Part shown: piece by piece, positions 47,849 to 56,179 of the stretch
How positions within the stretch are numbered: the stretch's first letter is position 1
How the letters are laid out: every line of letters starts with the position of its first letter
Assembly (NCBI RefSeq): GCF_013030265.1
Contig: NZ_WPZQ01000002.1
Coordinates: 124,001-188,000, forward strand
Direction: 5' to 3'
DNA from: Ruegeria arenilitoris
GTDB taxonomy: Bacteria > Pseudomonadota > Alphaproteobacteria > Rhodobacterales > Rhodobacteraceae
Length of the DNA stretch: 64,000 bases
Notes under the pieces: model-generated
The model's database searches: none
Seen by the model: the letters and a program-made list of their open reading frames with translations, nothing else
What the model was told of the DNA's origin: nothing
Translations under genes and position numbers: made by a program

Positions 47849-48063
47849 ATACCTATGGTGACGCGTATTGGGGCAGAATTGAAGGGGCGAAACTCTCAAT
47901 CACTTGGCTGAATGATGGGCTCTTGAGTGATATTAAACCGGAAAAGTAGTAAATCCTGTAAATGTGCTTTGAAAATAGGACTGCAACCAATAACAATTAA
48001 ACAACTATTCTGAAAAATCGTGTGCCCGGCCGAAAAGCGGGCGACGCCACCTTAGGGAAAGTT

Positions 48064-49365
48064 GTGCCTTTGCGCGACACACTGACAGGAAGCCGAATAC
48101 GGGAAAGACGACAGATTTCCGGTCTGCGTCAGGCGGAACTTGCGCGCCGGGTTGGTATTTCGGCGTCATACCTGAACCTGATCGAACATAATCGTCGGCG
48201 GATTGGGGGTAAGCTACTGGTCGATATCGCTTCGGCGTTGTCGGTCGAACCTTCGTTGCTAACACAAGGGATCGAGGCCACCTTGATCGCGGCGCTGCGC
48301 GAGGCGGCTGCAGATGCAGTTGGACAAACGGCCGAACTGGATGCGCTGGATGAGTTTGCGGGGCGTTTCCCCGGCTGGGCAGGTGTCTTGTCGCAGATGC
48401 ATCGCCGTGTCGTGTCTTTGGAGCGCACGGTTGAGACCCTGTCAGATCGATTGACCCATGACCCGCATCTGGCGGCCTCGATGCACGAGGTGCTTTCGAC
48501 CGCCGCCGCAATCCGATCGACCGCTGCGATTCTGGCCGAGCCCGAAGAGATTGATGCAGAATGGCGGGATCGTTTCCACCGCAACATTCACCAAGATGCT
48601 GAACGTCTGGCCGAAAGTTCCAAGGCTCTGGTTGCCTATCTGGATGAAAGCGAAGATGAGCCTGACCGCCGTGGGATGCCGCTGGAAGAGGTCGAGGCGT
48701 TCTTTGCCGAGCGAGATTACCATTTCCCGGAAATCGAAGAAGGTGCGGCAGCCGATTCGTTTCCGTTGGATGGTCTGGACACATCCGCTGCAAAATCCGT
48801 GGCGCAGAGCCTGTTGGCGACCTATGCCGCTGACGCGCGTGCAATTCCGCTGGAGAGGCTTCGGGAAGAGTTGGGCGGTGCTGAGCCGGATCCGATGGGG
48901 CTTGCGGCGCGATTTTCGGTAGATCTGGCGACAGTGCTGCGTCGGTTGGCATTTGTTCCGAAAAGCCTTCTGCCGCGGGCGGCGGGTCTGGCAATTTGTG
49001 ATGCGTCCGGCAGTATCCTGTTTTACAAGCCTGTGCCTGGATTTGCGTTACCCCGGCACGGAGAAGGCTGTCCGTTATGGCCGTTGTTTACAGCTCTTAA
49101 TCGGCCTCTGGTCCCTGTCCGGAAAAGGATCGTTCAGCTGGGCCGGACCGCGGCCGAGTTCGATTGCTATGCGATTGCCTGGCCTCAGCCTGTACAGTCA
49201 TTTGATCAGGACCCCGTTTATCACTCGGCAATGCTGGTGCTGTCGGTCGAAGATCCGTCGCCAGATGTCGAAGCGAAGGCTCAGGTTGGGACCAGCTGTC
49301 GCATCTGCCCCAGAAACGCATGTGAATCACGGCGTGAGCCGTCGATTCTTAGCGAAGTTTTTTGA
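48064..49365 (+). CDS. XRE-type regulator with ScfR (short-chain fatty acyl) domain
   Basis: 433 residues. The N-terminal HTH (SRIRERRQISGLRQAELARR then VGISASYLNLIEHNRRRIGG) is followed by a long helical region, an IrrE/peptidase-like ImmA zone, and the C-terminal ScfRs domain ending with three cysteines, TSCRICPRNACESRREPS. Relatives regulate propionate, acetate or glyoxylate-cycle genes by sensing acyl-CoA. The GTG start at 48064 has AGGGA 6 bases upstream; a GTG at 48022 has none. It heads a block with a response regulator and a transporter-kinase. Confidence 0.85.
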   Translation: MPLRDTLTGSRIRERRQISGLRQAELARRVGISASYLNLIEHNRRRIGGKLLVDIASALSVEPSLLTQGIEATLIAALREAAADAVGQTAELDALDEFAGRFPGWAGVLSQMHRRVVSLERTVETLSDRLTHDPHLAASMHEVLSTAAAIRSTAAILAEPEEIDAEWRDRFHRNIHQDAERLAESSKALVAYLDESEDEPDRRGMPLEEVEAFFAERDYHFPEIEEGAAADSFPLDGLDTSAAKSVAQSLLATYAADARAIPLERLREELGGAEPDPMGLAARFSVDLATVLRRLAFVPKSLLPRAAGLAICDASGSILFYKPVPGFALPRHGEGCPLWPLFTALNRPLVPVRKRIVQLGRTAAEFDCYAIAWPQPVQSFDQDPVYHSAMLVLSVEDPSPDVEAKAQVGTSCRICPRNACESRREPSILSEVF

Positions 49366-49443
49366 CAGTTTCCTGACAGAACGATTAATCTGACAGCGAT
49401 GGATGGCCGCGCGTCTGATCGGCCATGGGGAGGAACTGCAAAT

Positions 49444-49824
49444 ATGAGCCGTAAGGTTCTGTTGATCGAGGACGAGCCAAACATTACCGAGGCGATCCGA
49501 TTTCTGCTGACTCGTGAGGGTTGGCAGGTCGAGACCCATGCCGAAGGCGTGGATGCTGTTCAGGTGATTGTAGCTGAAAATCCGGACCTTGTTATTCTCG
49601 ACGTCATGCTGCCGGGTAAGAGCGGTATGGACATCCTGCGTGACCTTCGAGAACTTGAGGGGATGAAGGGCCTGCCTGTGTTGATGCTTACGGCAAGGGG
49701 GCAATCCCGAGATCGGGAAATGGCGGAGCAAGCTGGTGTCAGCCGGTTCATGACCAAACCATTTTCCAATACCGAAGTTCTGACTGCTGTGCGCGATCTT
49801 CATGCGCAAGCGTCGCGGTCATGA
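49444..49824 (+). CDS. Single-domain response regulator
   Basis: 126 residues comprising one receiver domain: acidic pair in LLIEDEPN, phosphoacceptor D53 (VILDVMLPG), T83 (LMLTARG) and K105 (FMTKPF). With no output domain, it must act by protein contact or phosphotransfer. Its stop overlaps the next start as ATGA and the transporter-kinase gene is two genes on, so they probably form one pathway. GGAGGAAC lies about 10 bases before ATG 49444. Confidence 0.93.
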   Translation: MSRKVLLIEDEPNITEAIRFLLTREGWQVETHAEGVDAVQVIVAENPDLVILDVMLPGKSGMDILRDLRELEGMKGLPVLMLTARGQSRDREMAEQAGVSRFMTKPFSNTEVLTAVRDLHAQASRS

Positions 49825-50132
49825 CGTCGGAGGATAATGCACGTCAATCAACGGCGACAAGACCGTCGCTCTTCCTGGAACGTCAGAGTTATCGTCGGCG
49901 CAGATTGTCTGATGCGGCGAGATTGCTGCCATTTCTGGGTGCCGCTCTGATCGGGCTCCCCTTGCTCTGGCCAGATGGCAGCGCAGGAGAAGACGCAGTG
50001 CCGCTTTCCTCCGCCATCCTGTACATCTTTGGTTGTTGGGGCGCCCTTATCCTGATCAGTATGTTCTTCGGCTTCGTGGCCAAGCGTTTTGCAGCACGTG
50101 AGGATACGGAGACGGACGAATGGCGACATTAA
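49821..50132 (+). CDS. Small two-helix membrane protein preceding the transporter-kinase
   Basis: 103 residues: a basic cytoplasmic N terminus (LERQSYRRRRLSD), two membrane segments (about residues 33-51 and 64-86) and an acidic tail. Its ATG overlaps the response regulator stop and its end overlaps the kinase by 13 bases. The position just before an SLC5 protein is like that of the small membrane proteins (YjcH/DUF485, DUF4212) that precede acetate permeases, but no match to those families is evident. It may be a subunit of the transporter-like sensor. Confidence 0.8.
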   Translation: MTSEDNARQSTATRPSLFLERQSYRRRRLSDAARLLPFLGAALIGLPLLWPDGSAGEDAVPLSSAILYIFGCWGALILISMFFGFVAKRFAAREDTETDEWRH

Positions 50133-52798
50133 ACGTCCTGATACTCGTCTGTCTTGGCTATGTTGTACTGTTGTTCGGCGTGGCCTTTGCCGCCGACCGG
50201 ATGGCGGTTGCCGGACGTGGGAAATGGCTGCGATCGCCATTGATCTACACTCTGTCCCTGTCGATCTATTGCACAGCTTGGACATTTTACGGCGCGGTTG
50301 GCAACGCCGCCCGTTCGGGTTTGGAATTTGTCACCATCTATCTGGGGCCGACGCTGGTGATGATCAGTTGGTGGTGGGGGCTGCGTAAACTTGTTCGCGT
50401 AGGGCGCAGCCAGCGCGTGACTTCAATCGCCGACCTGATTTCGTCCCGTTATGGCAAGTCGAATACTCTGGCGATTTGTGTGACCATTCTGGCTGTCTTG
50501 GGCGGCACGCCTTACATCGCGCTGCAATTGCAATCGATTACGCTCTCGTTCTCGATATTTGCCGAAGCGGATTCGTCTGGTCTCTATCGTGAGGGGTCGA
50601 GTGTCTTCTGGGTTGCGGCTGGTCTGGCAGTCTTTGCCATTCTGTTCGGTACACGAAACCTGGACGTGAACGAGCGTCACCACGGCGTTGTGACGGCCAT
50701 TGCTTTGGAATCTGTGGTCAAGCTGTTTGCGCTGCTGGCAGTCGGTATATTTGTCGTCTGGGGAATAGCTGGCGGTGTTGGTCCGATGATGGACCGTATT
50801 GATGCCTCTGAGATCGGTCAGTGGAACGTTGATGCGGGCCGCTGGACCACAATTACCTTCCTTTCTGCAGCGGCCTTTGTCTGCCTGCCGCGTATGTTTC
50901 AGGTGATGGTCGTAGAAAACGATGATGAGGGGCACCTGAGAACGGCGGCCTGGGCCTTTCCGCTGTATCTGCTGTTGATGAGCCTGTTTGTAGTCCCTAT
51001 CGCTGTCATCGGGCTGGACCTGATGCCCGAGGGATCAAATCCGGACCTTTTTGTTCTGACGGTACCGCTGTCTCAGGGTAATGAATGGCTCGCCATGCTG
51101 TCGTTTATTGGGGGTTTTTCATCGGCTACATCGATGGTGATTGTGACGGCCATGGCGCTTTCAACCATGGTCTCCAACCATGTTGTCATGCCGATCTGGC
51201 TGAGTACTCAGGAAGGATCGGGTTCGGTTTCGGGTGACGTACGCAATATCGTTCTGATGGCGCGCCGGGTTTCGATCGCCGTTATCATGGGATTGGGCTA
51301 CTTCTATTTCCATTTGTCCGGTGGGGGTGCGGCGCTGGCCTCCATCGGGCTTGTCGCATTTGCAGGGATTTCCCAGATTCTGCCAGCACTTGTAGGTGGT
51401 TTGTTCTGGCGCGGAGCGACGCGAACCGGTGCTCTGATTGGATTAAGTGTCGGGTTCTTCCTCTGGATTTATACGCTGCTGTTGCCCGGAATGGGCGGGG
51501 GGGTGATGCCTGCCTCGGTCCTTGAAAACGGTCCATTTGGCTGGGGATGGCTCAGGCCGCAGGCGTTGTTCGGGATCGATGGGATCGATCCGATGGTACA
51601 TACGATCATGTGGTCGCTGTCCCTGAACACCATCGCCTTTTGCGTGGCATCCCTACTGAGCTTTCCCAGCCCGCTGGAGCGGTTGCAAGGCGCTCAATTC
51701 GTGAATGTCTTTGACCATTCGGTTGCCCCGCAGGGATGGACCGGGTCCGTTGGCCAAAGCGAAGATCTGATGATCATGACACAGCGAATTCTTGGCACGA
51801 TTCCCGCGCAGGTGTTCTTTCAGGCCGAAGCGTTGAAACAGGGTGGTCGGGGACGATTGCCCGAACCTACGCCGGGTTTTCTGGTGCGTCTTGAACGTGA
51901 GTTGAGCGGTTCTGTCGGAGCGGCTACCGCTCATGCTATGGTAGGGCAAATCGTAGGCGGATCGTCGGTTTCGGTCGAAGATCTGCTGGCGGTGGCTGAT
52001 GAATCGGCGCAACTGCTGGAATACTCAGGTCAGATGGAGGCAAAATCTGCCGAGCTTAGCCGCACGGCGCGTCAGTTGCGTGAGGCGAATGAAAAACTCA
52101 CGCAAATCTCGATGCAAAAGGATGCCTTTCTTGGTCAGGTGAGCCACGAATTGCGCACCCCGATGACCTCAATCCGGGCATTTTCGGAGATCATGCGGGA
52201 TACCGAAGAGCTGAGTGCCGAGGAAAAGACGCGTTATGCAGCGATCATCCATGACGAGGCTTTGCGTCTGACTCGGTTGCTGGATGATCTGCTGGACCTC
52301 AGTGTTCTGGAAAGCGGGCAGGTCAGTCTGAACTTGGGCGACAGCACGTTGCGGACTGTTCTGGATCGCGCCATTTCTACCGCGCTTGCCGGAACAGATC
52401 GCAAGCTCGAGATACGGCGCAGCCTGACCTCCGAACGCATGCCGCTGCAAACTGATCTGGATCGCCTTGGCCAGGTCTTCATTAATCTGATTTCGAACGC
52501 GCAGAAGTACTGTGATGCGCCCGACCCGATCCTGACCATTTCAGCGCACGATGTTGGGGGGCAGGTCGTGATCGACTTCATCGACAATGGCAGTGGAATT
52601 CCACCCGAGGCGCAATCGATGGTGTTCGAAAAATTCGCGCGTGTAGGCTTCGACAAAGCCGGGGGCGCGGGTCTGGGCCTGGCCATCTGTCGTGAGATCA
52701 TGCAGCGCCTCGGCGGCGAAATCAGCTATTTACCGGGGCAGGCGGGGGCCGCATTCCGGGTCAGCCTGCCGCTGGCGCACAAGCAAGCCGCCCAGTGA
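50120..52798 (+). CDS. SLC5 transporter-histidine kinase fusion (CrbS-like)
   Basis: 892 residues. Residues about 1-525 form a sodium:solute symporter domain with about 13 helices (YGAVGNAARSGLEFVTIYLG; GGTPYIALQLQSI; FGTRNLDVNERHHGVVTAIA). A short linker and coiled coil (about 625-665) lead to a histidine kinase: H676 in FLGQVSHELRTPMTSIRAF, N box (LISNAQKYCD), G1 DNGSGIPPEA and G2 GGAGLGLAICREI. Proteins of this architecture (CrbS) sense acetate or related substrates and control their use. Together with the ScfR-type regulator this suggests short-chain fatty acid sensing, which is inference. Confidence 0.93.
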   Translation: MATLNVLILVCLGYVVLLFGVAFAADRMAVAGRGKWLRSPLIYTLSLSIYCTAWTFYGAVGNAARSGLEFVTIYLGPTLVMISWWWGLRKLVRVGRSQRVTSIADLISSRYGKSNTLAICVTILAVLGGTPYIALQLQSITLSFSIFAEADSSGLYREGSSVFWVAAGLAVFAILFGTRNLDVNERHHGVVTAIALESVVKLFALLAVGIFVVWGIAGGVGPMMDRIDASEIGQWNVDAGRWTTITFLSAAAFVCLPRMFQVMVVENDDEGHLRTAAWAFPLYLLLMSLFVVPIAVIGLDLMPEGSNPDLFVLTVPLSQGNEWLAMLSFIGGFSSATSMVIVTAMALSTMVSNHVVMPIWLSTQEGSGSVSGDVRNIVLMARRVSIAVIMGLGYFYFHLSGGGAALASIGLVAFAGISQILPALVGGLFWRGATRTGALIGLSVGFFLWIYTLLLPGMGGGVMPASVLENGPFGWGWLRPQALFGIDGIDPMVHTIMWSLSLNTIAFCVASLLSFPSPLERLQGAQFVNVFDHSVAPQGWTGSVGQSEDLMIMTQRILGTIPAQVFFQAEALKQGGRGRLPEPTPGFLVRLERELSGSVGAATAHAMVGQIVGGSSVSVEDLLAVADESAQLLEYSGQMEAKSAELSRTARQLREANEKLTQISMQKDAFLGQVSHELRTPMTSIRAFSEIMRDTEELSAEEKTRYAAIIHDEALRLTRLLDDLLDLSVLESGQVSLNLGDSTLRTVLDRAISTALAGTDRKLEIRRSLTSERMPLQTDLDRLGQVFINLISNAQKYCDAPDPILTISAHDVGGQVVIDFIDNGSGIPPEAQSMVFEKFARVGFDKAGGAGLGLAICREIMQRLGGEISYLPGQAGAAFRVSLPLAHKQAAQ

Positions 52799-52875
52799 TT
52801 GCGATTTAAAGGTATTCGTAACCGTCGCCGGGTTAGACCGGGTGTCAGGCGATAAACAGAAAGCGGTTCGGTGCC

Positions 52876-53979
52876 ATGGCAAATGACGTCAGCGCAGCTT
52901 TGGCGCGTAAACTTGTGGTTGGGCAGGCTGATGCCGAGGATAAACCCCGCCCTATCCTGCGGGCTCTGCGGTTGGCATTGGCTCGGGCAGCAATTGAAAC
53001 CATTCAGCTGCCACTGTCCGTCATCGGGGCCAAACAAACCACCAAGCCCTCGGACGCGCTAAGCCAGACTCTGACCGATGCTTGGTTGCTGCTCGCGTTT
53101 ACCAACAAAGACGGACGGACAGCTGCGGTCTGTCTGGACACCAGCTGTGTTTCAGCGATCCTGCAAATGCAGACCATAGGCGAAATACTATCAGGCTCGC
53201 CCCCGGATCGTGTATTCACCGATACGGATGCGGCCATGGTTGCACCACTCATTGAAAGTGTGTTGACCCAGGTTCCGGATCTAATTGACGCTCCGGCCGA
53301 TAGTGAATGCTTCGTCGGATACGAATTCTTGTCCCGAGCTGAAGATGTTCGATCGCTGTCCCTTGCGCTTGTCGAGGATGAGTATCGTGTCTTCGACCTG
53401 ACCGTTGATCTCGGGGGTGGAGTTCGTCAGGGCCAGCTAAGTATGTTCATACCGGAACAGCCAGCAATTGTACCTGAAGAAGAAGCAGAGGCTACTGAGG
53501 CTGGGCCTGTTCTGGAAATGGCAACGGGCGTGATGAGGGCTGAGCTGAACGCAGTTATGTGTCGTTTGTCATTGCCCCTGTCTGATCTTTCAGATCTGGA
53601 CGTGGGCAATGTTCTTCCTCTGACCGGAGCGAGGCTGGATCGCATCGACGTTTTGACGATCGAGCGAACACGGGCAGCTGTCGGACGCCTTGGGCAATGC
53701 GGCGGGATGCGGGCAATTCGTGTGAACGAGGAATTGGACATTCCAGTGATTGCCGGGCCAGATGCGCCTGAATTCATTGAAAGCAGAACCAGACACGCTC
53801 AGCCCGACGTGAGAGAGGCTGATCAGCCCGAGATGACAGTGTTAGACCCGTTGGACACAAGCGCTTTGCTGCCAATGGATCACAACCCGCTCTCCTCGAA
53901 TCCGGACGAGATCGCGGCTGAGATTTCGCAGTTGGCCGGGTTGACCGGGCTTCAGGACGATCAAGACCAGAAATTCTGA
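52876..53979 (+). CDS. Orphan FliM/FliN-type SpoA domain protein
   Basis: 367 residues. Residues about 224-287 form a SpoA domain (LNAVMCRLSLPLSDLSDLDV, GNVLPLTGARLDRIDVLTI, then GQCGGMRAIRVNE), as in the flagellar switch proteins FliM/FliN. The first 200 residues resemble a FliM-like middle region with an extra acidic linker (EEEAEATEAG), and the last 70 are acidic and probably disordered. No flagellar gene is nearby. It starts 77 bases after the transporter-kinase and may be its co-transcribed partner. Its stop abuts the convergent DUF442 stop. Confidence 0.8.
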   Translation: MANDVSAALARKLVVGQADAEDKPRPILRALRLALARAAIETIQLPLSVIGAKQTTKPSDALSQTLTDAWLLLAFTNKDGRTAAVCLDTSCVSAILQMQTIGEILSGSPPDRVFTDTDAAMVAPLIESVLTQVPDLIDAPADSECFVGYEFLSRAEDVRSLSLALVEDEYRVFDLTVDLGGGVRQGQLSMFIPEQPAIVPEEEAEATEAGPVLEMATGVMRAELNAVMCRLSLPLSDLSDLDVGNVLPLTGARLDRIDVLTIERTRAAVGRLGQCGGMRAIRVNEELDIPVIAGPDAPEFIESRTRHAQPDVREADQPEMTVLDPLDTSALLPMDHNPLSSNPDEIAAEISQLAGLTGLQDDQDQKF

Positions 53980-54411
53980 TCAGGTGTTCGAATTGCGAAT
54001 CTGATCAAGGGCAGGGCGCAGGCCTTCCAGCGCGTATCCGGCCTTGCTGGTCGCGTCGAGAATATCGTCGGTGCTCATCCTGTCGCACTGACCCAGAGCC
54101 CAGACAACGGAACAGCGAGTACCCGAGGCGCAATAAGCCAACACCGGTCCCGCGCAGCTTTCAGCCAGATCGCGTTGCAAGGCGACGTTTTCGGCAGTCA
54201 TGGTCTGATGCGTGAGCTCTAGGACTTCGTACTCCATGCCCGCTGCGCGAACGGCATCGCCGATCGCATCGGATTGCATGTCCGACGGGACCTCTACGTT
54301 GGGACGGTTGCAGATCACCTTGGCAAAACCTGCCTCGGCGATGGCTTGCACGTCTTCCACCGTGATCTGGGGTGAGACGGCATAGCGGGGGGTAATCTGA
54401 CGAATCTCCAT
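53980..54411 (-). CDS. DUF442 / TIGR01244 sulfur transferase-phosphatase
   Basis: 143 residues with the cysteine loop AYCASGTRC, a phosphatase-like P-loop (Cx5R is close: CASGTRC is shortened) used as a rhodanese-type active site. In BigR-Blh operons this domain is often fused to the MBL persulfide dioxygenase; here it is a separate gene at the end of the operon. It probably transfers sulfane sulfur in H2S detoxification. It follows the second YeeE/YedE half after 9 bases. Confidence 0.88.
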   Translation of the reverse strand: MEIRQITPRYAVSPQITVEDVQAIAEAGFAKVICNRPNVEVPSDMQSDAIGDAVRAAGMEYEVLELTHQTMTAENVALQRDLAESCAGPVLAYCASGTRCSVVWALGQCDRMSTDDILDATSKAGYALEGLRPALDQIRNSNT

Positions 54412-54420
54412 GGCAAATCC

Positions 54421-54852
54421 TTAGGTCGCGTTTGCAATCCTGTCCAGTTGTGCGCCGACTTTAGGAGCCGCAAACATGCCTGCCATCATGGCAACGAGAA
54501 AGACCAGCCCCTCAAACCCGCCATAACTGAGCGAGGCCATTGCCGGACCGGGGCACAAACCTGCTAATCCCCAGCCCATGCCAAACAGCACGGATCCGAA
54601 GATCAACCGTCTGTCCATCTCGGGTTTGGGCGGCACTGGAAAGTTGCCGCCAGACAGTGGTTTCCGGCTTTGCGTTAGGCGCCAGGCAATCAGCATAGGT
54701 AGGATTGCACCACCCATCACAAAAGCGAGTGTTGGATCCCAGTTGCCAAACACGTCCAGCCAGCCCTGAACCTTGGTCGTGTCAGTCATCCCTGAAACCA
54801 ACAAGCCAGTCCCAAAAAGCGATCCGGCAATAAGCGCAATCAGAACGCGCAT
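54421..54852 (-). CDS. YeeE/YedE family membrane protein, second half
   Basis: 143 residues with four or five membrane segments (IALIAGSLFGTGLLVSGMTD; FGMGWGLAGLCPGPAMASL). The conserved GLCPGPA cysteine is the sulfur-relay residue of these thiosulfate/sulfite-type transporters. The start at 54852 overlaps the upstream gene stop (ATGA); a longer frame to 54981 would run through the upstream gene. Confidence 0.88.
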   Translation of the reverse strand: MRVLIALIAGSLFGTGLLVSGMTDTTKVQGWLDVFGNWDPTLAFVMGGAILPMLIAWRLTQSRKPLSGGNFPVPPKPEMDRRLIFGSVLFGMGWGLAGLCPGPAMASLSYGGFEGLVFLVAMMAGMFAAPKVGAQLDRIANAT

Positions 54853-55280
54853 CAGATTAGCCCCCAGACATGGCGGAACAAGACAAGCGTGATCCCACCG
54901 GCCAGAATGTAAAACACGGTAGCGACCATACCGCGTAGCGAGAATCTTGATATGCCACAGACACCATGCCCCGAGGTGCATCCATTCGCGATACGCGTGC
55001 CAATGCCGACCAGCAAACCGGCGATAATCACAACCGCCAGATCGCTGGTCAAATGGGTTGCTGCCTGAGGGGCGATCAAGGGTTTCAGTAGCAATGGCAT
55101 GACGATCACACCGGCAATGAAAGCCAGTCGTTCCTTCGCTTCGCTTTTGCCACTGCCGTCAACCAGCCCGCCGAGAATGCCGCTTGCACCCATAATGCGT
55201 CCATTCCCCAGCAAATAAACCGCTGCGCCAAGTCCAATCAGCAGACCGCCAATCAAACCCCATATCCATTCCGGATTCAT
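54852..55280 (-). CDS. YeeE/YedE family membrane protein, first half
   Basis: 142 residues, about four membrane segments, with GIGTRIANGCTSGHGVCGIS, the family motif that carries the transport cysteines. With the next gene it makes a split YeeE-type transporter for a sulfur compound (thiosulfate in the best-studied case). It lies 35 bases after the MBL gene. Confidence 0.88.
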   Translation of the reverse strand: MNPEWIWGLIGGLLIGLGAAVYLLGNGRIMGASGILGGLVDGSGKSEAKERLAFIAGVIVMPLLLKPLIAPQAATHLTSDLAVVIIAGLLVGIGTRIANGCTSGHGVCGISRFSLRGMVATVFYILAGGITLVLFRHVWGLI

Positions 55281-55315
55281 CGTGAGGTGTCTCCTTGTCT
55301 AAGGCCGTAGGTGCA

Positions 55316-56179
55316 TCAAATTTTGTTGATGGGCAGCTTCAGGAAAACATCGCCTTCCTCATCGGCAGGGGGCATTTGACCAGCGCGCATGTTGACTTGC
55401 AGCGAAGGTAGGATCAGTCGTGGCATGCCCAATGTTGCATCGCGGGCATCGCGCATTTCGGTAAACTCTTCGATGCTGCGGCCCTGGCCGATGTGAACAT
55501 TCAGGGCTTTCTGTTCACCAACAGTGGTTTCCCACGCGTACTCATCCCGCCCCGGTGCCTTGTAGTCATGTCCGACATAGATCCGGGTTTCGTCCGGCAG
55601 CGATAAGATCTTTTGGATCGATTCATAAAGCATTGTCGAAGAACCGCCCGGAAAGTCACATCTGGCGGTTCCAAAGTCTGGCATGAAGAGAGTGTCTCCT
55701 ACAAAGGCCGCATCACCCAGAACATAGGTCAGACAGGCCGGAGTGTGCCCCGGAGTGTGCAGGACATCGCCCCGCATCTGGCCGATGTGAAAGCTGTCTC
55801 CTTCAGAGAACAGCGCATCAAACTGGCTGCCATCGCGCTGGAATTCCGTACCTTCGTTGAACACTTTGCCAAAGGTATCCTGTACAACGACAATATTCTT
55901 ACCGATGCCGATTTTCCCGCCAAGTTTTTGCTGAAGATAGGGTGCTGCTGACAAATGGTCGGCATGCACATGGCTTTCCAGTATCCATTCGACCTTGAGG
56001 TTGTTTGCGGTCACATACTCGATGATCTGATCGGCAGATCCTGTGTCCGTGCGACCCGAGGCATGGTCAAAATCCAACACGCTGTCGATGATTGCGCAGG
56101 CCGCGCCTTCGGGTTCCTGAACCACGTAAGACACCGTGTTTGTCTGCTCGTCAAAAAAGGCCTTTACGATTGGTGTCAC
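55316..56179 (-). CDS. MBL-fold persulfide dioxygenase (ETHE1/Blh-like)
   Basis: 287 residues. The metal motif HVHADH (ESHVHADHLSAA, from residue 69), HTPGHTPACL, VGDTLFMPDFGTARCDF and GHDY are as in ETHE1-type and Blh enzymes, which oxidise glutathione persulfide to sulfite with a mononuclear iron. First gene of the sulfur operon with two YeeE/YedE genes and DUF442. The AGGAGG SD is strong. Regulation by the SqrR-like repressor at 40200 is inferred; no clear match to its operator was found in the 246-base upstream region. Confidence 0.92.
   Translation of the reverse strand: MTPIVKAFFDEQTNTVSYVVQEPEGAACAIIDSVLDFDHASGRTDTGSADQIIEYVTANNLKVEWILESHVHADHLSAAPYLQQKLGGKIGIGKNIVVVQDTFGKVFNEGTEFQRDGSQFDALFSEGDSFHIGQMRGDVLHTPGHTPACLTYVLGDAAFVGDTLFMPDFGTARCDFPGGSSTMLYESIQKILSLPDETRIYVGHDYKAPGRDEYAWETTVGEQKALNVHIGQGRSIEEFTEMRDARDATLGMPRLILPSLQVNMRAGQMPPADEEGDVFLKLPINKI

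Follow-up and report, generated by a model that had tools for sequence, protein, structure and literature searches.

We report here that a 64,000-nucleotide stretch of DNA from Ruegeria arenilitoris of the family Rhodobacteraceae (contig NZ_WPZQ01000002.1, positions 124,001 to 188,000; hereafter the window) contains a conserved group of four genes that is predicted to form a nutrient-sensing relay and is followed by a putative gene encoding FliM, the switch protein of the native flagellum. The corresponding open reading frames (ORFs) are consecutive and all on the + strand, in the order transcription factor, response regulator, small protein with two transmembrane-like stretches (2-TM protein), sensor kinase and SpoA protein; ORF inspection thus bore out the order given in a preliminary description of this DNA. 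An unexpected result of our analysis was that the transcription factor carries an inserted DHp domain. A DHp-bearing transcription factor was new to us, and none of such build was shown in the open-access literature searched. The working that we propose for the locus as a whole is one that we consider slightly favored on present evidence. The features of the locus, in window coordinates, are as follows.

48064-49365, + strand: ScfR-like transcription factor with an XRE-type helix-turn-helix (HTH), a linker, an inserted DHp, a PrpR-like C-terminal part and four conserved cysteines; GTG start; Pfam HTH_3 and ScfRs above cut-off

48442-48645, + strand: DHp-like domain within the transcription factor, with an invariant His encoded at 48484-48486, i.e., H155 counted from GTG 48022 or H141 counted from 48064

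49444-49824, + strand: single-domain response regulator; Pfam Response_reg, E 2.4e-26; D53 codon at 49600-49602

49821-50132, + strand: small protein with two hydrophobic stretches (judged by eye), in a CbrX-like position; overlaps the response regulator gene (ATGA) and the kinase gene (13 bases)

50120-52798, + strand: predicted SLC5-STAC histidine kinase; HisKA at residues 667-733 and HATPase_c at 779-886; H676 codon at 52145-52147

52806-52824, + strand: cis element TTAAAG-N6-GTAACC in the kinase-fliM gap, conserved across loci

52876-53979, + strand: predicted divergent FliM with a CheC-like middle domain (about residues 25-200), a SpoA domain (about 218-288) and a variable tail; FliMN_C, E 1.6e-8, and AlphaFold2 model

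The DHp domain of the transcription factor was recognized when the profile of its family matched the sensor kinase in 24 of 24 genomes examined, always over the kinase DHp and with 17-43 bits. The matching segment spans residues 141-208 (48022 numbering), and its comparison with the kinase DHp by hhalign gave 97.7% (E 1.6e-12, 60 columns), with 97.4% for a longer segment of the factor and 1.3% or less for other pairs. All 107 distinct ungapped sequences have His155. It should be noted that some loci are one record fetched twice: the distinct sequences number 108 of 111 rows for the transcription factor (one gapped at the His) and 118 of 121 for the kinase, and the distinct regions 105 of 108 for the operator and 83 of 85 for the cis element. 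Three of 68 ScfR homologues (L076, L078, and L128; loci and genomes are given by our L and G numbers) were left out of the transcription factor alignment. In the AlphaFold2 model (pLDDT 89.7), a long helix is followed by a hairpin, with helices at 134-158 and 165-198 (48064 numbering) and the His in the first of them. By Foldseek and VIA-align, the C-terminal half of the model was placed on PrpR (Z 18.5 over model residues 204-433) and its N-terminus on XRE HTH domains. The insert therefore has the hairpin, the invariant His and the homology to a kinase DHp that are expected of a DHp domain. The factor as a whole does not qualify as a histidine kinase, given that HATPase_c was not found in it by Pfam and its C-terminal part is PrpR-like. 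A second ScfR protein of the same genome has no DHp insert and aligns to PrpR without it. The GTG at 48022 is an alternative start of the window gene, and homologues align from about residue 17 of this longer form.

The preliminary description classified this protein as a ScfR-type acyl regulator. The ScfR-like part of that assignment stands, as the HTH, the ScfR C-terminal domain and the four [4Fe4S] cysteines are all present, with Cys350, Cys426, Cys429, and Cys434 (48022 numbering) kept in 106-107 of 107 distinct homologues. The acyl-CoA-sensing part does not, because about 75 residues of the PrpR domain DIII are missing from the family profile, and these cover the CoA contacts K217, W232, and F240 described for PrpR (PMC6765138; PrpR numbering set here from Cys363). 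A transcription factor that still senses acyl-CoA and whose DHp helices merely dimerize would account for the retained C-terminal domain and Fe-S cysteines. Given, however, that the contact segment is absent from the profile and that dimerization alone leaves the invariant His unexplained, we regard such a factor as distinctly improbable. Further analyses revealed that the transcription factors of L103, L107, L111, and L112 combine the DHp with a PrpR-like segment of greater length (69-121 residues) at the DIII position, and that 6 of 66 homologues match Peptidase_M78. These intermediates suggest that the DHp insertion probably preceded the pocket loss. In the simplest reading, the transporter-like kinase would relay through the lone receiver to the transcription factor, the ligand pocket of which would have given way, at least in part, to a DHp.

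The residues that follow His155 bear on what such a domain may do. E/D at +1 (92 of 107 distinct homologues) and S/T at +4 (101 of 107) form an arrangement associated with the phosphatase activity of DHp domains, and no ATP-binding domain was found in the transcription factor by Pfam. Both observations would be consistent with a docking or dephosphorylating site, to which the phosphorylated response regulator would bind and thereby mask or release the transcription factor with no phosphate kept on H155. Pure docking, however, need not keep the His, which is present in every distinct ungapped sequence. The invariance of His155 thus favors phosphate transfer to the predicted DHp over mere docking, and we consider a docking or phosphatase site rather unlikely, although it is the alternative that we take most seriously for this domain.

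A candidate operator was found upstream of the transcription factor gene. Within 300 bases upstream, TGTAAA is present at 95 of 105 distinct loci, and at 60 of the 105 a pair of these boxes is spaced by exactly 32 bases; the next most frequent spacing was counted 4 times, and shuffles gave none. The operators of ScfR are also composed of two boxes, with an 18-bp spacer (PMC10370305).

The sensor was described preliminarily as an SLC5-histidine kinase, which is supported by the match of a 17-kinase profile to the solved chain 10ed_A over positions 4-613 (E 1.2e-94). We take this "histidine kinase" chain to be the SLC5-STAC part of CbrA from the numbering of its aligned lysine, and the SLC5-STAC-DHp-CA architecture predicted for the window kinase follows from this identification. 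The SLC5 part lies just below the Pfam SSF cut-off in its own genome (21.2 vs. 22.8 bits), and the Pfam scan of the window kinase revealed no PAS domain. H676 is kept in 121 of 121 rows (118 distinct). K201, which is invariant in the kinase alignment, aligns with K196 of 10ed_A, and K196 is the lysine described in the Na2 site in the preprint on CbrA (PMC13022988). Thus, by its sequence, the kinase is predicted to be a CbrA-type transceptor. The gene for its putative partner receiver is open from 49399, and GGAGG precedes the ATG at 49444, the start that yields D53.

The small 2-TM gene overlaps its neighbors as had been claimed, the response regulator gene by the ATGA at 49821-49824 and the kinase gene by 13 bases at 50120-50132. 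It had been likened to the small partner of acetate permeases, the family of which we take to be DUF4212. DUF4212 was not matched in the window protein, and the 19 families that were listed for 18 of its homologues do not include it; this result is no proof of difference, and the assignment was dropped. The Pfam scan found no family for the window protein; DUF6611 was matched by 13 of the 18 homologues (best E 2.4e-5). One of the 18 matches DUF3311, which is named beside a pyruvate symporter in the paper on RpuS/R (PMC9100948). In Pseudomonas, the CbrX peptide is described as co-purifying with CbrA and packing on its SLC5 domain, its gene overlaps cbrA by 17 nucleotides, and CbrX is reported as dispensable for growth on histidine (PMC13022988, preprint; PMC6591292). 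Because CbrX binds CbrA, the earlier idea of a two-subunit receptor that includes the 2-TM protein is plausible. The two small proteins agree in position and size only, and comparison with solved chains gave no convincing match.

The conservation of this neighborhood was examined mainly in 149 genomes of the Rhodobacteraceae, with a kinase threshold of E 1e-30. The kinase is present in 133 of them and the SpoA/FliM family in 117. By hand tally of co-occurrence, 111 genomes have both the kinase and the window-type FliM, with the two genes adjacent in 106 and apart in five (G012, G023, G026, G037, and G126), each of which is an assembly in several contigs. The kinase occurs without the window-type FliM in 22 genomes, and the window-type FliM without a kinase match in six, in one of which (G118) it lies near a contig end. 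In a tblastn comparison of 20 family regions, which were picked by hand and included five chosen because no SpoA gene had been found beside the kinase, the response regulator was found beside the kinase in 20, the transcription factor in 19, the 2-TM gene in 17, and the SpoA gene in 14. Among 76 named loci with a kinase ORF of >600 residues, some of them on cut contigs, the upstream response regulator, 2-TM, and transcription factor genes were found at 69, 68, and 65 loci, respectively, and a SpoA-family ORF at 55. The nearest named record is that of Rhodobacteraceae bacterium KLH11, whose kinase is 90% identical. Three metagenome-assembled genomes whose titles give no family name (L107, L111, and L112) have the transcription factor, response regulator, 2-TM protein, and kinase and no SpoA ORF, and the genes on the transcription factor side persist at loci without FliM. 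Thus, a four-gene core recurs across the Rhodobacteraceae and in a few metagenome-assembled genomes beyond. The recurrence of the four other genes beside the kinase in the 20 regions demonstrates that their order is not due to chance; the five-gene order is real and old, and relatives are syntenic, as the preliminary description would require.

The last protein of the group had been called an orphan SpoA protein. Its predicted fold, its intermediates and its distribution instead identify it as a probable divergent FliM. In an AlphaFold2 model based on 54 sequences, residues 31-190 had a pLDDT of at least 95 by blocks, and the SpoA domain was of lower confidence. SpoA ORFs of >460 residues (L062, L068, and L096) were excluded from our alignment of the SpoA ORFs. 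Foldseek ranked FliM chains from the Salmonella C-ring highest (8wiw_7, E 2.6e-12). With VIA-align, Z was 18.0 for 8umd_C (233 residues aligned, root-mean-square deviation 14.9 over both domains), 17.3 for Helicobacter pylori FliM 4fq0_B (root-mean-square deviation 2.8 over 167 residues) and 16.8 for Thermotoga maritima FliM 2hp7, and it was lower for FliY (14.7) and CheC (13.2). As in FliM, a single chain thus carries a CheC-like middle domain and then a SpoA domain. A phmmer search of the SpoA protein against PDB sequences gave no match, and the scan used found no relatives in viral contigs. The window protein itself gave no PF02154 match. Its family profile, however, reaches the PF02154 FliMs of G001, G008, G015, G017, G074, G083, G130, and G146 over 183-285 of 369 positions, and ten family members carry a PF02154-matching FliM (one below cut-off) with a similar N-terminal VLxRK-like stretch. 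The family is therefore continuous with recognized FliM through intermediates, which, together with the fold, led us to reject a novel sensory adaptor. At the C-terminus of the window protein (window 53900-53979), close relatives end in a conserved AEISxLAGL and others in DLPDLP repeats. The AEISxLAGL stretch, found among close relatives alone, resembles the motif by which canonical FliM docks CheY, and it was considered as a possible relocated docking peptide.

The genome of the window encodes two SpoA proteins, the predicted FliM and a FliN-like one, and no PF02154 protein was found in it. To describe the distribution, FlhA was called native by a score split of our own, as any match but the single high-scoring one (from about 769 bits upward) in 12 genomes, with which G039 was grouped by hand. 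Of 109 genomes with native FlhA, 97 have the window-type FliM (93 without a PF02154 FliM and four with a second, PF02154 one), nine have a PF02154 FliM only, and three (G053, G054, and G093) have neither. The window type is thus the sole FliM candidate in 93 of the 109 genomes in which a native flagellum is predicted. PF02154 FliM without the window type was found in eight genomes (G030, G033, G044, G045, G076, G090, G138, and G139). In G053, FlhA, FliG, a FliN-like SpoA protein, and a homologue of a 712-amino-acid cluster protein are present and the kinase and FliM were not found, reflecting either an assembly gap or a real loss. RSP6099 was reportedly identified as the Fla2 FliM of Rhodobacter sphaeroides in a paper of 2007. 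Native-system FliM and FliG are described as lying away from the flagellar cluster in R. sphaeroides (Fla2) and D. shibae and as responding to CtrA or quorum signals (PMC7277832, PMC6473078). In Sulfitobacter D7, a gene called FliM is reported as high in all treatments and not differentially expressed (PMC9873259). A 2025 Phaeobacter study of the fla1-type cluster names fliG and fliN, and in its main text FliM occurs only in the title of a reference (PMC12363192).

The coupling of a sensor to a FliM/FliN-like protein, which had been presented as unprecedented, is not supported, given that the kinase and FliM are each found in genomes that do not have the other; the protein is the candidate FliM of the native flagellum, and a FliM away from the flagellar cluster is already in print. 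Between the kinase stop and the fliM start we noticed a 19-base element, TAAAG-N6-GTAACC. Its core, TAAA-N8-TAAC, is found at 15 of 56 loci with fliM, at none of 21 kinase loci without fliM, and at 0.03 of 56 in shuffles, and the element is found within one mismatch at 32 of 83 distinct loci vs. 1.8 in shuffles. With each region shuffled once, the matrix score of the element exceeded the 95% level of the shuffles in 50 of 85 regions, which is partly so by construction. The window element also reads as TTAA-N9-TAAC, which occurs once in the 64 kb, and the other spacings tried gave no exact site. Before FliG, the core was found in 0 of 40 regions and TTAA-N9-TAAC in one of 40. A CtrA box before fliM was considered and rejected, as exact TTAA-N7-TTAA was found in 0 of 84 regions and sites with one mismatch or fewer in nine of 84, vs. 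a shuffled mean of 1.2 (maximum 7).

The element argues for a separate control of fliM. With its own conserved upstream element, the 22 kinase-only genomes and the six FliM-only genomes, FliM looks like a lodger rather than a signaling partner. The same observations, along with the persistence of the upstream genes at loci without FliM, weigh against a direct action of the sensor-phosphorylated response regulator on FliM, by which the nutrient sensor would steer or brake the motor beside the Che system. That the response regulator is a lone receiver and that FliM adjoins the kinase in 106 of 111 genomes are consistent with such an action, which we nevertheless judge to be highly unlikely. On account of this adjacency, a link between sensor and FliM is conceivable. 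Downstream of fliM, the region at 53980-56179 on the - strand presumably encodes a small phosphatase-like protein, two YeeE/YedE-like membrane proteins, and a metallo-beta-lactamase-like protein; many of the 20 regions compared have retained these genes next to the block.

FlhA was not found in 27 of the 149 genomes, of which 20 were listed and seven were deduced by exclusion using the listed matches. The 15 of these 27 that retain FliM (the window type in 14 and, in G074, a basal one) are precisely those that retain FliG, which was found in none of the remaining 12; the chance of identical sets is 5.8e-8 if the genomes are independent, an independence that their relatedness breaks. Only one SpoA match was obtained in each of these 15, and since it was taken as FliM, no FliN is assigned to them; the places of the weak matches were not all listed. 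All 15 FliG ORFs are intact (L201-L215), and among the FliM loci (L175-L185, L042-L044, and L167), 13 of 14 kinase-linked copies have open frames, that of G144 being broken. Mere decay of FliM is therefore disfavored. In 26 genomes with kinase, FliM, and FliG sequences, terminal-branch rates relative to the kinase were mildly raised in flagellum-free genomes, being 3.67 vs. 2.95 for FliM and 1.92 vs. 1.33 for FliG (13 and 9 genomes). The kinase-fliM element persists in some flagellum-free genomes, such as those of L185 and L177.

A second job held by the SpoA protein jointly with FliG, besides that in the motor, would explain their survival without a flagellum, and the shared retention, the intact FliG frames, and the mild change in rates are consistent with it. 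Both genes, however, lie outside the flagellar cluster, so that a deletion of the cluster spares both. The flagellum-free genomes also occupy dispersed tips of the kinase tree, two pairs of sisters among them, which makes a recent loss of the separate flagellar cluster possible, and one FliM copy is already broken. Among the 13 genomes with acquired-type FlhA only, the window-type FliM is present in six and two FliGs in seven; in G030 alone of these, where the only flagellum is of the acquired type, a second FliG is not accompanied by the window-type FliM, which also speaks against a joint role. On balance, we view a second job as unlikely.

Building on the gene order, domain make-up, DHp homology with its invariant His, FliM fold and distribution, and cis elements described above, we propose a scheme in which the ligand, the direction of phosphate flow, and any effect on genes or motility would be as follows. 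The SLC5-STAC receptor, with the 2-TM protein as its partner, would bind or carry a small nutrient, and the STAC domain would relay the resulting change to the kinase. H676 would then be phosphorylated and its phosphate passed to D53 of the response regulator, which would dock on the DHp that the ScfR-like transcription factor has acquired and trade phosphate with its H155. The transcription factor would thereby alter its binding to the two-box operator before its own gene. The separate element would drive or assist the transcription of fliM, and FliM would work in the C-ring, sharing the neighborhood and not the phosphate pathway. Beyond this scheme, we tentatively suggest, as a possibility in which our confidence is limited, that a transcription factor of the metabolite type became wired to a two-component system on gaining a DHp, probably from a kinase like its neighbor, and later lost part of its pocket; that the DNA-binding end point of a His-Asp-His relay carries the terminal phospho-His; and that FliM, which is kept with FliG even where there is no flagellum, may be a second output.

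Several observations weigh against these interpretations. The window transcription factor is not matched by Pfam HisKA, a weak HisKA match was obtained for just six of 66 homologues (best E 0.023), and the DHp stretch of its model was unmatched in the Foldseek and VIA-align structure lists, which HTH domains filled. The window promoter of this factor has one TGTAAA box and no exact 32-base pair. FliM typically has an N-terminal CheY-docking stretch and a FliG-binding GGxG, motifs that vary among lineages. The window FliM has no GG pair near the position of the FliG-binding loop, whereas the pair is present in nine of ten aligned basal native FliMs; the canonical N-terminal motif is absent from it and also from all ten basal native FliMs. 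The native class rests on our own score split. Finally, adjacency in 106 of 111 genomes exceeds what an idle neighbor would need.

The predicted sensor shares with CbrX-CbrA of Pseudomonas the order of SLC5, STAC, and DHp/CA, the Na2-site lysine, and a small membrane-protein gene that overlaps the kinase start. In contrast to CbrX-CbrA, no PAS domain was found in the window system, and its putative partners are a lone receiver and a ScfR-like transcription factor rather than a sigma-54 activator. ChpT and Spo0B are DHp phosphotransferases. The inserted DHp resembles them as a potential relay DHp without a working kinase domain and differs in that it sits in a DNA-binding protein. With the acyl-CoA regulators ScfR, PrpR, and RamB, the transcription factor shares the HTH, the C-terminal ScfR domain, the CX2CX4C motif with a fourth Cys, and the two-box operator; its family differs by the DHp in the linker and, in most members, by the absence of about 75 residues of the CoA-pocket domain. 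CrbS/R and RpuS/R, the SLC5-STAC systems for acetate and pyruvate, belong to the same sensor class, but those described in S. fredii are hybrid kinases with LuxR-type regulators (PMC9100948). Like the FliM of native (fla1-type/Fla2) flagella, the window protein combines a CheC-like middle domain with a SpoA domain, its gene lies apart from the flagellar cluster, and most of the native flagellates examined have no FliM candidate other than its type. It differs from that FliM by the missing GG pair and canonical CheY-docking motif and by its long variable tail. The SpoA part of the locus is thus explained and less novel than first thought, and the two-subunit sensor has a published parallel.

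Transcription factors of two-component systems are normally receivers that are phosphorylated on Asp. If our interpretation is true, a widespread regulator with a kinase-like phospho-acceptor domain would represent a new wiring of two-component systems, and its family would offer a readable evolutionary path, in which the insert came first and pocket loss followed. For roseobacter motility, FliM, which goes unnamed in the main text of the 2025 study of the fla1-type cluster except for a reference title (PMC12363192), would be given a fixed address next to a nutrient sensor. That FliG and FliM survive together or not at all in the 27 FlhA-negative genomes would open a non-flagellar role of switch proteins to direct test.

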